Part shown: positions 4,336-18,803 of the stretch, in pieces | How the letters are laid out: each line of letters begins with the position of its first letter | How positions within the stretch are numbered: position 1 is the first letter of the stretch | IMG/VR virus record: IMGVR_UViG_3300042433_000099 | Location: 1-20,295 of that record | Strand: one strand, 5' to 3' | Length of the DNA: 20,295 nt | Origin: a virus | Made by a program: the position numbers and the translations under genes | The notes under the pieces: generated by a model | Databases searched by the model: none | Told to the model about the DNA's origin: nothing | The model's input: only the letters and a program-made list of their open reading frames with translations

Positions 4336-4517
4336 GGCGGAATTCCCCAATAACGCTTTAGCTTGCCATCCTGCTTTTTCAGGATAGTCCAGCCTTCGGC
4401 GCGTATGTCTGAGATGCGGCGATGCGGTGAAACGCTTGGCAGAATAGACGCAATGTCTACGGATGTGCAGCCGTTTTTGCGCTTGAGTAGGCGCTTGAGC
4501 TTTTGGGCTTGGGTCAT
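4323..4517 (-). CDS. Helix-turn-helix protein (64 aa)
   Basis: A 64-residue winged-helix-like protein. Residues 1-25 form the first helices (MTQAQKLKRLLKRKNGCTSV), then DIASILPSVSPHRRISDIRAEGW reads as turn and recognition helix, and a wing follows (ILKKQDGKLKRYWG). It matches the small HTH family found in phage early regions. It probably binds DNA and may control nearby promoters; its own 3' end overlaps the candidate promoter at 4307-4335. The start overlaps the stop of the MazG-like gene as ATGA. A longer overlapping frame beginning at 4524 is a shadow. Confidence 0.7.
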   Translation of the reverse strand: MTQAQKLKRLLKRKNGCTSVDIASILPSVSPHRRISDIRAEGWTILKKQDGKLKRYWGIPPCGK

Positions 4518-4822
4518 GCTTCATCCTTCACAAATACACCGTTAGGCATCATCGTGCCTTTGCGATCTTTGATGGTGTTGTAAGCAGACTTGAGGCATTC
4601 GGTTAGGTCTAAGTCCTCTTTTGTGGCGACAATAATCAGCGTCACCAGCACGTCACCTAGACCGTCAATCACTCCGGCGCGGTCTCCCTTGATTAGCGCG
4701 TCTGCCAATTCGCCTAGCTCTGACATGGTTTTCAGTAGCTGGGTCTGGCTTGTGGCGTTAGGCAGAATCTTCCGCGCTTCGGCCCATTGGATTACGTTCA
4801 TCTCTGTTTGTGCGTAGCTCAT
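4514..4822 (-). CDS. MazG-like nucleotide pyrophosphohydrolase
   Basis: A 102-residue protein with the MazG-like all-alpha NTP-pyrophosphohydrolase pattern. KTMSELGELADALIKGD carries the first metal-binding acidic pair (E35, E38), and DGLGDVLVTL carries the second (D53, D57), followed by AYNTIKDRKG. Enzymes of this family hydrolyse (d)NTPs to monophosphate and pyrophosphate, and phage versions may adjust nucleotide or alarmone pools; the substrate here is unknown. Start at 4820-4822 has GGAG six bases upstream. It overlaps the upstream zinc-ribbon gene by 65 bases, unusually long for this operon. Confidence 0.8.
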   Translation of the reverse strand: MSYAQTEMNVIQWAEARKILPNATSQTQLLKTMSELGELADALIKGDRAGVIDGLGDVLVTLIIVATKEDLDLTECLKSAYNTIKDRKGTMMPNGVFVKDEA

Positions 4823-4982
4823 TTTCTTCTCCAAATAAATCAGGCTGTTCGTTCTTTACGACTTTCATATGCACGGCCAGCCGTTTACCGTCCATTTTTT
4901 CTAAGCACTTAGGCCCGATAGGGTAAGCGCCTACCCATGCTGCGGCTTTGTCCATTTCCTTACCGCATCGAACACACTTCAT
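4758..4982 (-). CDS. Small zinc-ribbon protein (74 aa)
   Basis: A 74-residue protein with MKCVRCGKEMDKAAAWVG at the N-terminus and a later GPKCLEKM, giving Cys at residues 3, 6 and 25. This is an incomplete or His/Glu-completed zinc knuckle. A short motif QPDLFGE (residues 46-52) looks like a DnaN-clamp-binding peptide (QxxLF pattern), which is suggestive only. The C-terminal 22 residues overlap the MazG-like gene. The start overlaps the upstream stop as ATGA. Possible roles include DNA binding or interaction with the sliding clamp. Confidence 0.6.
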   Translation of the reverse strand: MKCVRCGKEMDKAAAWVGAYPIGPKCLEKMDGKRLAVHMKVVKNEQPDLFGEENELRTNRDERNPMGRSAEDSA

Positions 4983-5248
4983 ACAACGTGGCTTCCAGTT
5001 TCATACGCTAGGCACTTTTCAATTGTCCGAACATGTACCCCGTATTGCTTCGCTAAGGCTTCATTGCTCAGGTTGTCTCGGATGTGCTTTCGTAGGTTCT
5101 CACGCTGTTTTGCTGCGCTGCGGATTGAAACAATGTCTAGGTCTAGCAGCTTGGTTTGCGGTAGGTCTTGGCCACGAGGGGCCATAGAGCGAGCGCGGGA
5201 AAGGTATTCCCCACGCTCTAACCGCTTTTCAGGGCGGTGGGCTTTCAT
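4979..5248 (-). CDS. Helix-turn-helix protein between methylase and zinc-ribbon genes
   Basis: An 89-residue basic protein. The N-terminus is rich in Arg and Lys (MKAHRPEKRLERGEYLSRAR), the middle contains LPQTKLLDLDIVSIRSAAKQ, and the C-terminus has LSNEALAKQYGVHVRTIEKC (residues about 60-79), a clear helix-turn-helix of the resolvase/sigma-like type. A similar protein appears in phages of related hosts, though no function is established. It probably binds DNA. It is coupled by ATGA overlaps to the methyltransferase upstream and the zinc-ribbon gene downstream. Confidence 0.7.
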   Translation of the reverse strand: MKAHRPEKRLERGEYLSRARSMAPRGQDLPQTKLLDLDIVSIRSAAKQRENLRKHIRDNLSNEALAKQYGVHVRTIEKCLAYETGSHVV

Positions 5249-6285
5249 TCCATGTCTTCCAGTTCGATCAAGGATTCTTGCTTGAACACTTGGCCGGTTT
5301 CGAACCGCTTAGACGCCAGTTCAAGATTGATCTTGGCTTGTTTGAAGTAGCTGTCTTTCAGTTCGATGCCGATAGCCTTGCGACCCATAGAAACGGGGCT
5401 ATAAACCTCGGAGCCTACGCCCATAAATGGAGTCAGAACAACCTCGCCTTCATTGCTGTAAAGTTCCACAATGCGGTCAATTACGTCTAGTTGCAGCGGG
5501 TGGACGTGCTTTTCGTCGTCTTCCTCGCGTGAATCGCGGAAGGGCAACACGTTGTCAATGCGAATGTCATCCCAAACACTGGAGGCGTATCGCTGCCAGA
5601 TGTAGTGCGACAATTTGTTGCTCTTGGGGTCTTTGTGGTCAGCAAAATTGCTTTGCAGGTATGCCCACAATTCTTCCTCAGTGAACTTGGTTTCGTTTGC
5701 ATTGTTAAAAGCTCGGAGAATGTTCGGGAGAATCGGAGTCTCGCCAAAGTAACGGCTCAAACCATGCGGGTGAGTGACTGGCACCTCACTGTCGCCCTTC
5801 TTGGTCAGGATAAGCATGTAATCAGGCATTGCCGTGAAGCATTGGGTAGAGTCCTCGACAATCAGCTTGTGCATCAGGCTCTTGACCATTGTTCGCATAC
5901 GCACCTTCAATGGCTCCTTCCAAATAGTGATGCGGTTGCGGTACTGAAAACCGTACTTCTCGTGCAGTCGGATAATTTCATGGGGAAAGTCCCACAACCT
6001 GCAGGCATTGTCAAAAACATCGGTGCAATGCACAGCGGTAATGCGACCGGGCTTTGTCACTCGGGCGATGTGCGCAATCAGGAATTCGTACTGCTCTAAA
6101 AATTGCTCTTTGCTCTCGCAGTTGGAAAAATCGCGTTCGCTTGAGCTGTAGTTATACAAACCCGCAAACGGGGGGGAGTACACCGACAGGTCAACAGAGT
6201 TATCCGGCAGTGTTGGCAATACCTCCATGCAATCGGAGTTGTAAATGGCGTATTGGGGGGTGATGATCTGGTCTTTGGTTTTCAT
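5245..6285 (-). CDS. DNA methyltransferase (N6-adenine or N4-cytosine, beta-type order)
   Basis: A 346-residue amino-methyltransferase. Catalytic motif IV appears first as SPPF (residues 37-40), the S-adenosylmethionine-binding motif I last as FMGVGS (287-292), preceded by HPLQ (262-265) and followed by GIEL (306-309). This order is that of the beta class. SPPF differs from the usual DPPY or SPPY, so the modified base (m6A or m4C) is uncertain. Its target is not predictable. It overlaps the helicase gene as ATGA, which suggests joint expression. Possible roles are protection from host restriction or marking phage DNA. No restriction endonuclease is seen nearby. Confidence 0.85.
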   Translation of the reverse strand: MKTKDQIITPQYAIYNSDCMEVLPTLPDNSVDLSVYSPPFAGLYNYSSSERDFSNCESKEQFLEQYEFLIAHIARVTKPGRITAVHCTDVFDNACRLWDFPHEIIRLHEKYGFQYRNRITIWKEPLKVRMRTMVKSLMHKLIVEDSTQCFTAMPDYMLILTKKGDSEVPVTHPHGLSRYFGETPILPNILRAFNNANETKFTEEELWAYLQSNFADHKDPKSNKLSHYIWQRYASSVWDDIRIDNVLPFRDSREEDDEKHVHPLQLDVIDRIVELYSNEGEVVLTPFMGVGSEVYSPVSMGRKAIGIELKDSYFKQAKINLELASKRFETGQVFKQESLIELEDME

Positions 6286-7652
6286 TTGAGGAACTCGGGA
6301 AGTTGAACAGTTTGTGTAAATTGCTTGGTAGAGAAACTAAAGTCGCGGTTAGCGGCTTGTACTAGGTTGCCATATAGCTCGATGGCTTTCTGTGTCTTTT
6401 GCTCTAGAGCTTCTAGGACACGCTCTTGGCCTTCGCTGATAACCATGTCACAAGTGACTTCGGACTTTTGTCCAAAGCGCCAGAACCGGCGAATTGCTTG
6501 GTAATACTGCTCATAGCTCCATGTTGGGAAAAATACCGTATGGTTGCAGTGTTGCCAGTTCAAGCCCATGCTGGTCATCTTGGCCTTGGTAATCAGTCGT
6601 TTGATCTCGCCTTGAGCGAATGCGACCAATATTTCTTCCTTCTTGTCGATAGACATCCCTCCAATGATTTCCACGGCGTCATGGTCTAGCGTTGCAAGTA
6701 GTGCGCTTTCCTCGTTCAAGTTGCACCAGTAAACCGAAGTCTTACCGCTGGCCAACTGTGCAGCACGTTCGCAACGTTCCTTCACCGTGAGCTTTTGCTC
6801 TTCGCGCACTTCGGTCATCGTCTTCGCTGGCATAGAGAACAAAGAATCTTGACCATCAATGCACCACGTAGCCTCATTCTGTACCATGTGCTTTTGGACG
6901 TGCAATTGGGGTAAACGATAATTGTCATCGCTGAAACCTAGGTCAGATGGCTTTTTGACCATGACCGACCATTGATTGACCCATGCAAAAAAATCACGCT
7001 CGGCATGTGGCTTTAGGTAGAACTTTTCGCCTATGTTGCGATTGTTGCTGTCCACGCTGTTCTGATTCGATTTAAAGAATTTGGTCAGCATGTCCATGTA
7101 ACCCATATACCCCAATGCCTCGGAGCTGTTGCCAAGCTCAATGAAGTCGTTAGGGCTAGGGGTAGCGGTTGACAGGAACCTATAAGGCACCCGCTTGATA
7201 AACGCCACGATCTGGTCGCGTGTCTTGCCTGCAAAGTTTTTCAGGATAGACGATTCGTCCAGCATCACGCACACGAAGTCATCAGGGTTTAACAGGTGCA
7301 AGCGTTCATAGTTGCAGACTGTGATTTTCTTGGTGATGGTACCGTCTTTGCTGTGGGCAATGTCAGACACGCCAATGCGCTCGGCTTCGTTGATAAACTG
7401 AAACGCCACAGCCAAAGGGGTTAGGATAAGAACCCGCTTATTGGTATGTCGCACAATGTTTTCAGCGATTACAACCTGCATCAAGGTCTTGCCAAGACCG
7501 GTGTCCGCAAACATGCCAATACGACCCTTACGCACGGCCTTTGTGATTACATGCTCTTGAAAGTCAAAAGCACTGTCTGGCATCCATACGGGGTCAAACC
7601 CGTAATTTCCCGTGCTGTGCGTCTTGCTTCGTAAAAAATCCTCGTAGTTCAT
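6282..7652 (-). CDS. SNF2-like superfamily 2 helicase/ATPase
   Basis: A 456-residue helicase. Walker A is ADTGLGKT (residues 49-56), motif II is LDES (131-134) in place of DEAH, motif III is STATP (161-165), and motif VI is QAIRRFWRFGQ (385-395); NWQHCN (365-370) lies in the second RecA-like domain. These are the SNF2/SSO1653-type signatures common in phage genomes. It is an ATP-driven DNA translocase, perhaps in replication or recombination. Adjacent genes for a methyltransferase and an HTH protein resemble modification-linked helicase sets, although no nuclease is present. The start overlaps the upstream stop as TAATG. Confidence 0.9.
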   Translation of the reverse strand: MNYEDFLRSKTHSTGNYGFDPVWMPDSAFDFQEHVITKAVRKGRIGMFADTGLGKTLMQVVIAENIVRHTNKRVLILTPLAVAFQFINEAERIGVSDIAHSKDGTITKKITVCNYERLHLLNPDDFVCVMLDESSILKNFAGKTRDQIVAFIKRVPYRFLSTATPSPNDFIELGNSSEALGYMGYMDMLTKFFKSNQNSVDSNNRNIGEKFYLKPHAERDFFAWVNQWSVMVKKPSDLGFSDDNYRLPQLHVQKHMVQNEATWCIDGQDSLFSMPAKTMTEVREEQKLTVKERCERAAQLASGKTSVYWCNLNEESALLATLDHDAVEIIGGMSIDKKEEILVAFAQGEIKRLITKAKMTSMGLNWQHCNHTVFFPTWSYEQYYQAIRRFWRFGQKSEVTCDMVISEGQERVLEALEQKTQKAIELYGNLVQAANRDFSFSTKQFTQTVQLPEFLK

Positions 7653-7996
7653 TAGCAGCTCACTCCCTTAGATTTAATATGCGAATGGTCAGACCCCGGA
7701 CGATAGAACGGCGGCTGATGCTCACCGTCTCCGGTGCGATACGTTCCGCGCCCTACGACGTATTGACGCGCCCCTGCAAGGTCTTTCTGGTCTAGCACGT
7801 TGCGGCCCATCATTGTGATGTGGTAAGCCTGCTCTGCCTCGAAACAGTAGCCAGCCTCTACCAACTGAGCAAGCCAGCCGTTAAGAACGTCAGGGTGCAG
7901 TGGTGTGCGGCGGTCACCGTGGGTGAAGTAGTGCGCTTTGCGGGGGGATTGCGCGATTGCTGTGAGCATTGTGCGCAGACGTTCGTTCAGTTTCAT
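7652..7996 (-). CDS. Hypothetical winged-helix-like early protein (114 aa)
   Basis: A 114-residue protein starting MKLNERLRTMLTAIAQSPRK. The first 70 residues (VLNGWLAQLVEAGYCFEAEQ, then AYHITMMGRNVLDQ) fit a winged-helix pattern of the type seen in MarR-like and related small regulators. The C-terminus is polar (GDGEHQPPFYRPGSDHSHIK). Family not identified. The ATG at 7994-7996 has GGAG five bases upstream, so I prefer it to the GTG at 8063-8065. It is the first gene of the leftward operon and sits next to the divergent control region, where a regulator would be expected. Confidence 0.6.
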   Translation of the reverse strand: MKLNERLRTMLTAIAQSPRKAHYFTHGDRRTPLHPDVLNGWLAQLVEAGYCFEAEQAYHITMMGRNVLDQKDLAGARQYVVGRGTYRTGDGEHQPPFYRPGSDHSHIKSKGVSC

Positions 7997-8052
7997 GGTC
8001 GCTCCGTTGTTAAAGAGGCTTGAATCATTGCATAGATTTTTGTGAATTGGCA

Positions 8053-8075
8053 CTAGGGTAAACACCTATATGCAA
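8053..8075 (+). repeat. Repeated boundary element, plus copy A
   Basis: The core AGGGTAAACACCTATATGCA begins two bases into this interval, after CT. The first 17 bases, beginning CTAGGGTAAACACC, are identical to the copy at 10346. It runs directly into the ATG of the leader frame at 8070. Confidence 0.65.
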
Positions 8076-8628: not shown

Positions 8629-8714
8629 AATACATCCGTCAATATTTGATTTACCGCCGCGCCGGATTTACGGTGCTTAACTCTCTGAAACGTGCTTACA
8701 AGGTGTGGAAATGA
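8625..8714 (+). CDS. Basic micro-protein (29 aa)
   Basis: A 29-residue frame MKYIRQYLIYRRAGFTVLNS followed by LKRAYKVWK. It is rich in Arg, Lys and aromatic residues and should form one amphipathic helix or a helix-turn-helix of two. ATGA overlaps at both ends place it in the coupled chain, and its end carries the ribosome-binding site of the ERF gene. Short proteins of this YRRAG type are, from memory, recurrent beside phage recombination genes, but I cannot give a function. Confidence 0.55.
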   Translation: MKYIRQYLIYRRAGFTVLNSLKRAYKVWK

Positions 8715-9268
8715 ACGTCTATCAAAAACTGAATGCAGCGCGGTCTGCATTTCACTCCAAACCCCTGAAAAAGTCAGGGCACAACAATTTTGCAGGCTAT
8801 GATTATTTCGAGCTTGGCGACTTCGTTATCCCTGCGCTGTCGGTGTTTGCAGAGCACGGTTTGACATCTGTTATCAGCTTTGGCGATGTGGCTTCTATGA
8901 CCATCGTAAACAATGACAAGCCAGAAGAAACCATTGTTATCACTTCGCCCATGTCTGAGGCCAATTTAAAGGGGTGCCACGCTGTCCAAAACCTCGGGGC
9001 AGTACAAACATACCTTCGCCGCTATTTGTGGGTTGCAGCGCTTGAGATCATCGAGCATGATGGTCTGAACATGACGCAATCAGAAGGAAAGCAAAGCGGG
9101 TTTGATGTGCTGGAGGCTTTGGACTTGGTAGAGGCTTCGCTTACCTTGGAAGGATTGGAGAAGGTATGGAAAGAACAAAGCACAAAGGCTCGAAAGGCTC
9201 AGAATCGCGGGGGATATGACGCACTTATGGCCGCAGTGAATGATAAGAAAGCGGTGTTGTCAAAATGA
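8711..9268 (+). CDS. erf: ERF-family single-strand annealing protein
   Basis: A 185-residue protein starting MNVYQKLNAARSAFHSKPLK. The ERF-family signature is clear: KKSGHNNFAGYDYFELGDFV (residues about 20-39) and NLGAVQTYLRRYLWVAALEI (residues about 95-114), followed by EHDGLN. ERF proteins anneal complementary single-stranded DNA and form rings in phage recombination. The C-terminal part is helical and probably binds partners such as SSB. The ATG at 8711-8713 fits the ATGA overlap and has AAGG seven bases upstream; a GTG two codons earlier is not needed. It is paired with the nuclease downstream. Confidence 0.9.
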   Translation: MNVYQKLNAARSAFHSKPLKKSGHNNFAGYDYFELGDFVIPALSVFAEHGLTSVISFGDVASMTIVNNDKPEETIVITSPMSEANLKGCHAVQNLGAVQTYLRRYLWVAALEIIEHDGLNMTQSEGKQSGFDVLEALDLVEASLTLEGLEKVWKEQSTKARKAQNRGGYDALMAAVNDKKAVLSK

Positions 9269-9897
9269 AGATTTTTCGAGCCTCTAGCATTGGAAAGCTG
9301 ATGACGGAGCCTAAATCCAAAGCGGAAGGCCCGTTATCAACTGGTGCCAAAACCTACATTCGAGAACTAGCTGCTCAGGAAATTCTAGGAATTGACTTTC
9401 ATGTGTCAAGCAAGCCTATGCAAAAAGGCATTGAATGCGAGGAAACGGCCATTCAGCTATTGAATAACGTGCGTGGCATCTGGCTAGTAAAAAACACAGA
9501 GCGCCGAATGCTTAACGGCATCACAGGGGAATGCGATTTGTTTGATGAAGTGAACAAGCGCGGACACGACATCAAATGTTCATGGTCTGCGGCCACGTTT
9601 CCCATCCTACCTATGGACTGCGAGGACAAGCTCTACGAATGGCAAATGAGGGCCTATATGATGCTTTGGGATGCTCAGGAATGGAGCGTTGACTATTGCC
9701 TAGTCGATACGCCCGAGCACCTGATTGGCTACGAACCCGCAGAAATGCACGTTTTTTGGCACATTCCCGAAAAACACAGGGTGACAAGCTGGAAAGTAAT
9801 GCGCGATGAGGAAAAAGAAAAGCGCATGATTGAGAAGGTCGGACAAGCTCGGGAATATTACGCGCAAGTCATCGAGGAATTTAACGCAACTCACTAA
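9265..9897 (+). CDS. YqaJ-like PD-(D/E)XK exonuclease
   Basis: A 210-residue nuclease starting MKIFRASSIGKLMTEP. Catalytic pattern: KGIECEE (residues 54-60), GECDLFD (88-94, D91), HDIKCSW (101-107, D102 and K104) and YEWQMRAYMM (124-133, Q127). This is the lambda-exonuclease/YqaJ arrangement. It should resect double-stranded ends to expose single strands for the annealing protein encoded just upstream, with which it overlaps as ATGA. Together with the SSB it forms a complete single-strand-annealing set. All key residues appear intact. Confidence 0.9.
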   Translation: MKIFRASSIGKLMTEPKSKAEGPLSTGAKTYIRELAAQEILGIDFHVSSKPMQKGIECEETAIQLLNNVRGIWLVKNTERRMLNGITGECDLFDEVNKRGHDIKCSWSAATFPILPMDCEDKLYEWQMRAYMMLWDAQEWSVDYCLVDTPEHLIGYEPAEMHVFWHIPEKHRVTSWKVMRDEEKEKRMIEKVGQAREYYAQVIEEFNATH

Positions 9898-9906
9898 GGA
9901 AAGAAA

Positions 9907-10344
9907 ATGAATAACATCACAGTAGCCGGTCAACTTGGACGCGATGCAGAATTGCGCTACATGCCAAACGGTGACGCCGTTGCTAACTTTAGCGTGGCAG
10001 ATTCTCAGGGCAAAGACAAGCCTACTATCTGGTGGAATTGCCAGCTATTTGGAAAACGCGCCGAATCGTTGTCACAGTACCTGACCAAAGGCATGTCCGT
10101 AACGGTGACAGGAAACATCACGCAGCGCACCTATACCGACAAGCAAGGCGCTGAAAAGGTTAGCACCGAAGTTCGTGTCGCTGACGTAGCGTTGCAAGGT
10201 GGCCGCAAAGATGACCAATCAGAACAACGTCAAGCACCACAGCAACGCGCACCGGCTCCGAGACAAGCTCCAGCACCGCGCCAAGCGCCACGAGGCTCAC
10301 AGGGTAGCGGGTTCGATGACATGGACTCAGAAATACCTTTCTGA
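9907..10344 (+). CDS. ssb: Single-stranded DNA-binding protein
   Basis: A 145-residue SSB. Residues 1-103 are the OB fold (MNNITVAGQLGRDAELRYMP; WWNCQLFGKRAESLSQYLTK; VTGNITQRTYTDKQG), residues 104-135 are a Gln/Pro/Ala/Arg linker with APAPRQ repeats, and the tail ends DMDSEIPF, the acidic tip that recruits other proteins. It protects single-stranded DNA during replication and annealing. AAGGA lies six bases upstream of the ATG. Unlike most neighbours it does not overlap the upstream gene, which suggests independent, higher expression. Confidence 0.95.
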   Translation: MNNITVAGQLGRDAELRYMPNGDAVANFSVADSQGKDKPTIWWNCQLFGKRAESLSQYLTKGMSVTVTGNITQRTYTDKQGAEKVSTEVRVADVALQGGRKDDQSEQRQAPQQRAPAPRQAPAPRQAPRGSQGSGFDDMDSEIPF

Positions 10345-11432: not shown

Positions 11433-11902
11433 TAGATGCCTTTCAGTTGGTCAGCAATACGACGCGCCCAGCCTTTGCCAAACGTGTCCCATGTGGTTAG
11501 CTTGGTCATGAATTCCAGACGCTGCCCTAAAAAACGGGCGCTAATGGCCTCTGCGTCTACCCGACCAACGGCTGCAAGGGTCATAGGGCCTATTACACCG
11601 TCATCAGCGAGATTGACAGCACGTTGTAGGAATCGGATGGCTTGGCCGATTCCACTGTTTACAGCAGCGTCAAACAGCAGATAGGCAAGTTGCGGGGGGA
11701 GCTTGTCGCATTGCGCTCTATCCCAATAGTCCCGCTTGTAAATGGCTTTGGCTGCGTCTAGCGTCAGGTTCTTGATGTCCACCTGCGGGTAAGCGCGTTT
11801 GGATATCCCATATTTGGTTTCGCCTCCGGGGTCTCGTGGGTCGTTGACATATCCACCCTCATGCGAAATCAGCTTGTCAAAACACTGGTCAAACCAAGTC
11901 AT
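11432..11902 (-). CDS. GH108-type endolysin (N-acetylmuramidase)
   Basis: A 156-residue lysozyme of the glycoside hydrolase 108 family. The catalytic Glu is in SHEGGYVNDPRDPGGETKYG (E15), followed by KYGIS and a helical core. The C-terminal half (VNLADDGVIGPMTLAAVGRV, residues about 92-111) is the family's putative peptidoglycan-binding part. It should cleave the glycan backbone of murein at the end of infection, with access provided by the holin encoded downstream. No signal peptide is seen, so a canonical holin route fits. Both junctions are overlapping. Confidence 0.92.
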   Translation of the reverse strand: MTWFDQCFDKLISHEGGYVNDPRDPGGETKYGISKRAYPQVDIKNLTLDAAKAIYKRDYWDRAQCDKLPPQLAYLLFDAAVNSGIGQAIRFLQRAVNLADDGVIGPMTLAAVGRVDAEAISARFLGQRLEFMTKLTTWDTFGKGWARRIADQLKGI

Positions 11903-12283: not shown

Positions 12284-12562
12284 TTACCTTATGTGGTTTT
12301 TGTAGAAAAAGTTGCAATAAGCCTTCACAGCGCGAGCGAAAGAACCGCGCCAGCCTGCGTAGTATTGGAGACGTTGCGCCCTAGTGGAGAACGTCCATTC
12401 ATTTTTAGCAGGGAAGTCCCATGTAATCAAGGCTAGTTCAGTGTAATTTGCGATTACGTCAATCAGGAAGGCTGCAAACGTTATCGGAGTGACTAAAAGC
12501 CACCAGCCGCCACGCTCTGCTTGTACTGCGATGGGATACAAGATAGCTAACAAAATTGTCAT
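12284..12562 (-). CDS. Membrane protein in the lysis/tail junction (92 aa)
   Basis: A 92-residue protein with two hydrophobic segments (residues 2-15 and 20-42), then a conserved-looking polar region with WDFPAKNEWTFSTRAQRLQY and GWRGSFARAVKAYC. The WTFSxRxxRL...GWRGxFA pattern recurs, from memory, in small phage proteins found near lysis genes; the exact role is not known. Start overlaps the upstream stop as ATGA. Only four bases separate it from the spanin-like gene. It may be an accessory lysis or membrane protein. Confidence 0.6.
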   Translation of the reverse strand: MTILLAILYPIAVQAERGGWWLLVTPITFAAFLIDVIANYTELALITWDFPAKNEWTFSTRAQRLQYYAGWRGSFARAVKAYCNFFYKNHIR

Positions 12563-17525: not shown

Positions 17526-18379
17526 TAAATCCACCCCGCCTTCTTAAACAGCCCGCTTCCAACGGTTGCACCACCACCAGTGCCTAAACCGAGAATGCCT
17601 GATCCGATACCGAATAGGCCGCCAGTCATTCCACTCATGCCAGCATTTGCCGCGTTGGTTGCGCCTAGGTCAGCTTGATACTGTGCATTTGCTGCGTTCA
17701 TGTAATCCGGCCCTGCGGTCTGGCCTTGTTGTGCATAGCTCTGGAATTGTGGCGATTGAACCTGAGCGCCAGAGCGTAGGGCGTTTACTAGGTTAAGAGG
17801 GCGATCTTGGATGTATGCTTGCTCCTGCAAAGCACTTGCGCGGTTTGCTTGGTCTAGGTTAATACCCTGCAATGCTGCTTGTAGTTGTAGGTCGTTAGCA
17901 CGTTGCCCTTGCGCGGTCATTTCCTTGCCGTAAGCGTCTGACCCTAGCGTTATGCCTTGGTTTGCCATGCGCGTGCGGAGGGCTTCCTCTTGTTGGGCAA
18001 GTTGAGGCTGTAAGCGCGACATCATCGCATCTTGCGCGGTCTGGCCTACGTTCATCGCCCTAGCGGGTAGCTGCGACATATCCAATTCAGGATTGGACAA
18101 CAGCCCCTGAACCTTATCAAAACCAGTGCTAGCTGTATCGGCGTACTTGTCCGATAGGGCCATTTGTTTGTCAAGTGTGGCCTGCGCTTGCGGGGTTAGC
18201 GTCTGGGTTTGCTCCCAAGTACCGTCGCCTAACTCTTTATAGGTCAGGTTTCCGTAGGGAGTGTATTGATTGACGCGGTTGGCTTTAGTAGCGTACTTTG
18301 CCGCTTCTAGGTTTCCCGCTGCGGTCTTTTCTGCTGCTGCCCCATAATCAGGGGTTTGAGGAGCGGATTGCTTGCCCAT
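17525..18379 (-). CDS. Internal virion / DNA-transfer protein (284 aa)
   Basis: A 284-residue protein starting MGKQSAPQTPDYGAAAEKTA. The motif series PDYGAAAEKTAAGNLEAA, NQYTPYGNLTY, WEQTQTLTPQAQATLDKQMA is characteristic of podoviral small ejection or tail proteins. The middle is Gln/Ala-rich helical, and the end is Gly-rich (GLFGIGSGILGLGTGGGATV), which could insert in membranes. GAGG lies nine bases before the start. Together with the next two genes it makes a set of three ejection-like proteins, as in P22-like phages. Confidence 0.75.
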   Translation of the reverse strand: MGKQSAPQTPDYGAAAEKTAAGNLEAAKYATKANRVNQYTPYGNLTYKELGDGTWEQTQTLTPQAQATLDKQMALSDKYADTASTGFDKVQGLLSNPELDMSQLPARAMNVGQTAQDAMMSRLQPQLAQQEEALRTRMANQGITLGSDAYGKEMTAQGQRANDLQLQAALQGINLDQANRASALQEQAYIQDRPLNLVNALRSGAQVQSPQFQSYAQQGQTAGPDYMNAANAQYQADLGATNAANAGMSGMTGGLFGIGSGILGLGTGGGATVGSGLFKKAGWI

Positions 18380-18803
18380 TGTATTTATCCTCTAAAAATC
18401 TACATTCGGACTTGAACATCCGGTATAAAAGTAAATCGCCTTGAGGGATAGCCTTGGCAAGCGTTGCCTCAAGTGTAAAGCCTAATCTATTCATTAACAA
18501 CCTGCTTTTAACGTTGTCGCTGTGTACAGGAGCTGTGATTCTTTCCACGCCTAACTGGTTGTAGGGATAATCAAATATCAGCCCCAAAAACCCCCTAGTA
18601 GCCCATCCCTCATCACCAGCGATATGGCAGACAATATTAGCCTTGGTGTAGTCCTCATACAGAACACCCGCCACCAGTTCGCCGTCTTTTAGTCTTCCTA
18701 TCGCAGTTCCCCTACCTTTGCACCAATGCCCCCCGGTTTTTGAAGATACCCAAGGGCCGACAATATCAGCATCAAAGGTAACTTCATTTCCGAAGATTTT
18801 CAC
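18348..18803 (-). CDS. GNAT-type acetyltransferase
   Basis: A 151-residue protein with a GTG start (18801-18803) that overlaps the upstream stop as GTGA. The sequence fits the GNAT fold: GRGTAIGRLKDGELVAGVLY (strands), IAGDEGWATRGFLGLIFDYP (the beta-4 and acetyl-CoA region, although the classical Q/RxxGxG/A is not clearly seen), and VERITAPVHSDNVKSRLLMN with LGFTLEA at the C-terminus. It may modify a virion or host protein. Its placement inside the structural cluster is a recurring podoviral arrangement. It overlaps the downstream gene by 32 bases. Confidence 0.75.
   Translation of the reverse strand: MKIFGNEVTFDADIVGPWVSSKTGGHWCKGRGTAIGRLKDGELVAGVLYEDYTKANIVCHIAGDEGWATRGFLGLIFDYPYNQLGVERITAPVHSDNVKSRLLMNRLGFTLEATLAKAIPQGDLLLYRMFKSECRFLEDKYNGQAIRSSNP

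Follow-up and report, generated by a model that had tools for sequence, protein, structure and literature searches.

A run of three overlapping genes on the minus strand of the 20,295-base virus record IMGVR_UViG_3300042433_000099, all of which was analysed and is referred to here as the window, raises the question of which of these genes belong together and what they do for the phage. They code for a superfamily 2 (SF2) motor protein of the SNF2 type, a DNA methyltransferase (MTase) and a small helix-turn-helix (HTH) protein. The original prediction had joined all three into a coupled cassette. The three open reading frames (ORFs), the beta-order MTase with its SPPF motif and the ATGA overlaps were all found where that prediction had placed them (Table 1) and, as it had also claimed, no restriction nuclease came to light: family and profile searches detected no nuclease domain in any of the three proteins. 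However, the unit is the dyad of motor and MTase, not a set of three genes. This dyad is exchanged between related phages as one block.

The overlaps themselves say little about the unit. The plus strand reads TCAT (ATGA on the minus strand) at 6282–6285 and 5245–5248, a third TCAT at 4979–4982 links the HTH gene to the following 74-aa ORF, and further four-base overlaps are seen at 1382–1385, 2371–2374, 9265–9268, 11899–11902, 12559–12562 and 18800–18803. Since such overlaps are frequent across the window, overlap alone is no evidence of special coupling.

The association of the two genes is nevertheless evident from their distribution. A scan of viral contigs with the window MTase gave at least 599 stretches, the best 80 of which were kept as loci. 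The motor gene lies directly upstream on the same strand in 78 of these, with a gap of no more than 21 bases between aligned ends in 71 of the 78. The two exceptions were a rearranged contig (L031) and one that begins just before the MTase gene (L067). In L031, part of the dyad is present a second time in inverted orientation and the HTH gene is truncated, owing to either a rearrangement or an assembly artefact. In a two-domain profile scan of 307 loci (window included, L001 left out), 303 hold the motor or the MTase and 300 hold both, in line with the original description of a frequent phage pairing, which has also been named and discussed in print. Separation is not frequent in the relatives checked: a single domain was seen in only three of the 303 loci (L067, L235 and L240). 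Neither domain was found in L088, L090, L091 and L092. Some loci come from the same contig or genome (L003/L082, L088/L095 and L096/L103). Exactly one N6_N4 MTase is encoded in each of 10 related records of 36.9–42.1 kb; the two of the 12 related records without it are both short (4.0 and 15.4 kb).

Natural fusions of the two proteins are common. The 300 pairs comprise 197 fused motor–MTase proteins (a count that depends on the queries used), 102 split pairs in the same order and a single split pair with the MTase first, in Alteromonas phage XX1924 (L194), the order there being taken from the annotation. With the 754-aa natural fusion S-CBS3 gp40 of a Synechococcus phage as the query, 347 of 50,697 annotated phage records were matched, so the dyad is widespread, being found in hundreds of phages. 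In 304 of the 347 records, one place covers at least 80% of the query; among plasmids, this coverage was reached in eight of the 29 matching records.

The two proteins have also diverged together. Among 121 representatives (thinned from the 291 of 300 pairs that passed a length filter), motor and MTase protein distances are correlated with r = 0.955, and none of the 7260 locus pairs is close in one protein yet distant in the other. The combined tree has two main branches, a mixed one (35 split, 6 fused) and an all-fused one (80), and contains at least four changes between the fused and split forms, two of them forced by well-supported branches. Comparisons of the window with L085, L086, L003 and L002 gave ratios of non-synonymous to synonymous divergence (dN/dS) of 0.045–0.047 for the motor and 0.013–0.026 for the MTase, values that are rough, as some synonymous distances are near saturation. 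The MTase ratio against L005 was 0.019; with L004, saturation of synonymous sites left two comparisons without a ratio. Purifying selection acts on both proteins, whose catalytic motifs are intact.

The HTH protein behaves differently, and its inclusion is the part of the cassette that did not hold. The HTH profile matched 26 ORFs, 16 of them directly downstream of a dyad; the others are four distant relatives located upstream, four ORFs in loci without a dyad match, one ORF located far away and one in the rearranged L031. Among the HTH loci without a dyad match, L088 belongs to the same contig as L095, of which it is the opposite end. We rejected the HTH protein as a third component because it follows the dyad in only 16 of 300 loci, accompanies three dyad types and also occurs without the dyad. 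Its dN/dS is 0.070–0.082 against L085, L086 and L003; the protein is identical in L002. Family and profile searches gave no match at an E-value of 0.001, and a looser threshold gave sub-cut-off matches to HTH models only (best E-value 0.01); no match was found among annotated phage records.

The strongest new evidence on the dyad is that it is exchanged as one block, with borders at, or about 20 bases from, the start and stop codons. In L084, L087, L093 and L095, the left and right neighbours of the window dyad are present where the contigs reach: orf137 in L084, L093 and L095, and the HTH gene in all four, including L087 (in L095, the contig ends within it). Between these flanks there is one fused protein, cut by the contig end in L087, that is ∼37% identical to the window pair. 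The split-form locus L085 and the fused L095 are identical at 90.6% of 413 bases up to the dyad start and at 96.6% of 119 bases from the HTH start codon to the end of the L095 locus. In steps of 30 bases, their identity drops from 0.97 to 0.67 and then 0.37 at the dyad start codon, and returns from 0.23 to 1.0 at the HTH start codon. L085 and L087 are 92.1% identical over 771 downstream bases. Among the Cheoctovirus mycobacteriophages, the same site holds the split pair in Ramsey and Emma and the fusion in Girr, with flanks 88–94% identical up to ∼20 bases from the start and stop codons. In the Flavobacterium phages FCV-16 and FCOV-F14, flanks that are 97.0% and 93.7% identical enclose fused proteins of two different types; as their stop codons are offset by 19 bases, a simple scan was uninformative at that border, which comes from a separate flank comparison. 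In all, whole-dyad exchange was seen in three phage groups, in two of which the two-gene form replaces the one-gene fusion. Exchange in blocks without mixed pairs suggests that the motor and the methylase must match.

Part of this swap pattern is already in print, as the available portions of PMC11855218 describe gp60 of Pacc40 as a helicase plus methylase and as a divergent allele set in the same gene neighbourhood. In the literature searched, including the accessible parts of PMC3173496 and PMC7824862, no report was found of the two-gene and one-gene forms replacing each other. Thus, while this kind of dyad was already known, its border-precise exchange between two-gene and one-gene forms is new here, as is the branch with S[IV]PF motifs described below, of which no report was found in the same literature.

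A separate locus, L090 (3127–3785), has the flanks of the dyad but not the dyad itself. In place of the dyad there is a pair of small ORFs, one of which matches AP2 below the cut-off; the site may be empty or have been emptied, with the ORFs perhaps being homing elements.

The exchange could also be the work of selfish elements, with the dyad being a hitch-hiking cassette in which homing elements (HNH endonucleases, inteins) drive gene conversion with little benefit for the phage. Each of the seven wider gaps (265–775 bases) between motor and MTase contains an inserted extra gene. In the four gaps of 767–775 bases this is an HNH ORF, recognized by Pfam in L018 and L033, by eye in L026 and by gap size only in L021; in the three gaps of 265 bases it is a small MazG-like ORF (by eye in L049 and L062, by gap size only in L060). 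Another HNH type lies between the two genes in phage hattifnatt, Ramsey, Emma and Girr have a gene annotated as HNH immediately before the dyad, and the fusion in phage Doug (L189, 1489–5001) is interrupted by an intein-like insert in its MTase, at the conserved HVC-PLQF site. As far as their available text goes, PMC9957025 and PMC11855218 both describe homing elements in the dyad family; the former follows an actinophage methylase family in which transfer is frequent and inteins occur, and which appears to be the same as that of Doug. However, strong purifying selection on both proteins and near-universal catalytic motifs are not what a passenger would show, most dyads have no element between the genes (an extra gene is present in only 7 of 78 gaps), and homing could explain the mechanism of exchange without excluding a function for the phage. 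We therefore consider a purely selfish cassette quite improbable.

What the dyad does for the phage depends on its two parts. The window motor scores 39 bits with Helicase_C (PF00271; cut-off 23.5) and 19.8 bits, below the cut-off of 24.9, with SNF2-rel_dom; its fused relative in L093 comes just under the latter cut-off with 24.6 bits. It matches phrog_62 (E-value 2.5e-48) and the helicase half of phrog_16 (E-value 4e-27, positions 269–590 of 986), and has the motifs GLGKT, DESS, STATP and RFWRFGQ. The fold was modelled on the 731-aa fused protein of L093 [60 sequences; mean predicted local distance difference test (pLDDT) score 83.0, predicted template modelling (pTM) score 0.68]. The best PDB match of its motor half was INO80 (Z 32.6, root-mean-square deviation 3.0 Å over 373 residues), followed by ISW1 (Z 31.3) and other remodellers, with DEAD-box proteins at a Z of ∼27. 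Judging by this model of a fused relative, the window protein, predicted to be an SNF2-like helicase, is of the SNF2 type but probably acts as a double-stranded DNA translocase of the remodeller kind, rather than as an unwinding or replicative helicase. While the model shares its motor fold with SNF2 chromatin remodellers such as INO80, ISW1, SNF2h and DDM1, identity to these is only 16–18%, there is no chromatin involved, and any remodeller-like role would be played on phage DNA. In a separate case, the split-form motor of Gordonia phage Squiddly (L097, 4001–5857) has a long low-complexity Ser/Thr-rich insertion with no counterpart in Ramsey.

A motor of this kind could instead serve replication or recombination, remodelling forks or stripping proteins from DNA while the MTase marks new DNA or regulates replication or packaging, with no part in restriction evasion. 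Indeed, the window dyad is found near genes for Erf, an exonuclease, single-stranded DNA-binding protein (SSB) and DUF1376/O-like proteins. Furthermore, a sliding-clamp homologue is encoded in 57 of 300 dyad loci compared with none of 89 random viral loci (833 kb, not matched for gene neighbourhood); it lies between MTase and motor in XX1924 and immediately follows the MTase in L057, L059 and L063. However, 42 of the 57 cases represent one arrangement, ∼3 kb away on the opposite strand, so that, with the unmatched background, the clamp partnership is a lead only. Other observations also argue against this alternative: the L090 site has the same flanks without the dyad, close relatives of one carrier are without the methylase according to the available part of PMC11855218, a DnaB is encoded by some of the relatives and a RepA by S-CBS3, and wholesale exchange of alleles would be unexpected for a core replication part. 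Thus, a replication or recombination helper seems unlikely, though less so than a selfish cassette. A main role as the replicative helicase was rejected, given the separate DnaB of some relatives and the L090 site. Of the four closest relatives checked, DnaB is encoded in L085 and L095 but not in L086 and L093, and it was detected in only three of 12 related records; the remaining records may be incomplete or come from phages that use the DnaB of the host. A homologue of the DNA polymerase III beta sliding clamp is also seen near the dyad in L186 (Gorpy).

The window MTase scores 74.9 bits with N6_N4_Mtase (PF01555; cut-off 26.7) and matches phrog_16 with an E-value of 6.2e-27 (positions 670–924 of 986). 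Its SPPF motif (residues 37–40), with ∼36 N-terminal residues ahead of it, precedes TPFMGVGS (residues 285–292), which is the beta order. The closest fold matches of its model include both N6-methyladenine (m6A) and N4-methylcytosine (m4C) enzymes: MboIIA (Z 22.1, 4.8 Å over 227 residues), TTHA0409 (Z 22.0, 4.2 Å over 222 residues), and M.BceJIV and a rotifer N4C MTase (Z 20.9 each). The MTase half of the L093 model is closer to TTHA0409 (Z 26.6, 2.5 Å over 223 residues). All these enzymes have the fold in common with the window MTase but were solved without a motor. Because SPPF is the form of motif IV that is typical of N4-cytosine enzymes, we lean slightly towards m4C, rather than m6A, as the modified base. 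The middle of the protein (window residues 96–228), where the target-recognition region is expected, is its most diverged and length-variable part between families: compared with 12 SPPF relatives, identity there is 23–46%, with 8–51 of 133 positions gapped. This divergence fits differing specificities but proves none; if it does reflect them, an exchange of the dyad would alter the target specificity.

Taken together, the properties of the two proteins point, with somewhat better than even probability in our estimate, to a two-subunit ATP-driven DNA-modification enzyme for counter-restriction, a role already suggested in the original prediction and, in the available part of PMC5512222, published for relatives. 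The SNF2-type motor would track along double-stranded DNA, either towing the N4/N6 MTase or clearing bound proteins ahead of it, so that phage DNA could be methylated during infection fast enough to escape host restriction. Both activities are made together, from overlapping genes or as one fused protein, and in the split form the two subunits would associate in a complex. Inheritance and exchange as one block would suit an arms race with the host, since the target specificity would be replaced in a single step. Overexpressed Girr gp64, a fused dyad, is cytotoxic according to the accessible part of PMC11075535, which indicates activity in the host but not which activity.

Some observations weigh against this interpretation. 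The window MTase model is of only moderate quality (mean pLDDT 70.2), with a long, poorly modelled stretch at residues 230–262, and the inferred changes between fused and split forms rest on few well-supported branches. Over the 300 dyad loci, motif IV reads SPPF in 187, SIPF in 102 and SVPF in 8 (unread in 3), and the SIPF/SVPF forms are fixed across the whole all-fused branch, in phages and in bacterial genomes (e.g. L187, L094, L188 and L190), so methylation by these 110 fused proteins is less certain. Still, S[IV]PF need not signify a dead enzyme, since N6-dimethyladenosine RNA methyltransferases of the KsgA/Erm kind have a similar N-[IL]-P-[YF] motif.

The same building blocks occur in restriction–modification systems, and the dyad might be the remnant of a type III or DISARM-like system that has lost its nuclease. 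A beta-class MTase next to an SF2 motor recalls Mod/Res, the window MTase model matches the Mod chains of EcoP15I and Mbo45V (Z 16.8 and 16.0), and in PADLOC the motor weakly and partially matches DISARM DrmD, among others. However, the window dyad has an SNF2-remodeller-like motor, searches of the window proteins and of two fused relatives detected no nuclease domain, motif IV is SPPF instead of the DPPY of Mod, and the strong purifying selection in hundreds of phages is unlike decay. Descent from such a remnant is the least probable of the alternatives considered, with little to recommend it. Membership in type III restriction–modification systems was ruled out, as no Res nuclease domain was found in the 456-aa motor, and so was membership in DISARM or BREX, as there was no full-length match to the defining helicase of either system. 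The best defence-helicase matches of the motor were DpdE (E-value 2.2e-8 over 96 residues) and DrmD (E-value 3.2e-7 over 91 residues), with scores far below the NCBIfam cut-offs.

The closest known counterpart of the dyad is phrog_16, annotated as 'DNA helicase/methylase' (Girr gp64, Gorpy gp73, S-CBS3 gp40), which has the same two domains in the same order. The two window proteins match the respective halves of phrog_16 and whole fused proteins match it end to end, so that the window pair, with its related SF2 motor and an N6_N4 MTase downstream (the order seen in 299 of 300 pairs), belongs to the same kind of dyad. It differs from these examples in consisting of two overlapping genes of the SPPF branch, whereas Girr and Gorpy fall in the all-fused branch, Girr with SIPF. 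The available text of PMC5512222 describes the DarB dyad of phage P1 and polyvalent proteins as an SNF2-type ATPase with a DNA methyltransferase, proposed to act in antirestriction; there the MTase precedes the helicase, is of the gamma class with NPP(Y/F) and comes with an LPD36 domain, and DarB is packaged into virions. By analogy, the window dyad may work like DarB. It is not a DarB-type member, because both the domain order and the MTase class differ: the window dyad is motor-first, its MTase has the beta order with SPPF, and its proteins are small.

No report on the biochemistry of the dyad was found in the literature searched; to that extent the original remark that its combined function is not established is valid, although the pairing itself has been discussed in print. 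The function of the dyad is directly testable in natural pairs of related phages with different alleles at one site, such as Girr (fused) versus Ramsey and Emma (split). A more far-reaching reading, which we offer as tentative, is that such phages have a fixed 'modification slot' occupied by one SNF2-motor/MTase module, with distant two-gene and one-gene versions of it being swapped from start to stop codon. What selection acts on would then be the specificity of the matched machine, in which the motor, as a remodeller-like factor for processivity or clearing, would be indispensable to the methylase. If so, it would be a phage parallel to the eukaryotic SNF2 partners of DNA methylation and, should the motor prove essential for methylation, the dyad would represent a minimal machine for marking DNA, driven by ATP through a motor of the remodeller type.

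Table 1. Positions of the dyad genes, their overlaps and the flanking genes in the window.
Feature	Position	Strand	Basis
SF2 motor of SNF2 type, 456 aa, without nuclease domain	6282–7652	minus	ORF, Pfam/PHROG matches, motifs, remodeller fold of the corresponding half of a fused relative
Beta-order N4/N6 DNA MTase, 346 aa, SPPF and TPFMGVGS	5245–6285	minus	ORF, Pfam, motifs, fold
Small HTH-like protein, 89 aa, adjoins the exchange site, outside the dyad	4979–5248	minus	Profile census, sub-cut-off HTH matches
ATGA overlap, motor stop/MTase start	6282–6285	minus	Sequence
ATGA overlap, MTase stop/HTH start; right-hand exchange border in relatives	5245–5248	minus	Sequence, border identities
orf137, left-hand neighbour of the exchange site, kept in relatives with split and fused dyads	7652–8065	minus	

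Elsewhere in the window, the closest nuclease-like ORF is an exonuclease (9265–9897, phrog_5715) located beside Erf and SSB. The Erf annealing protein, this exonuclease and SSB form a plus-strand recombination cluster (8705–10344) that is divergent from the dyad. A MazG-like gene (4514–4834) lies two ORFs downstream of the dyad region, and a small GNAT-like protein (18348–18803, phrog_4470) is encoded with a four-base overlap with a large ORF of the structural region.

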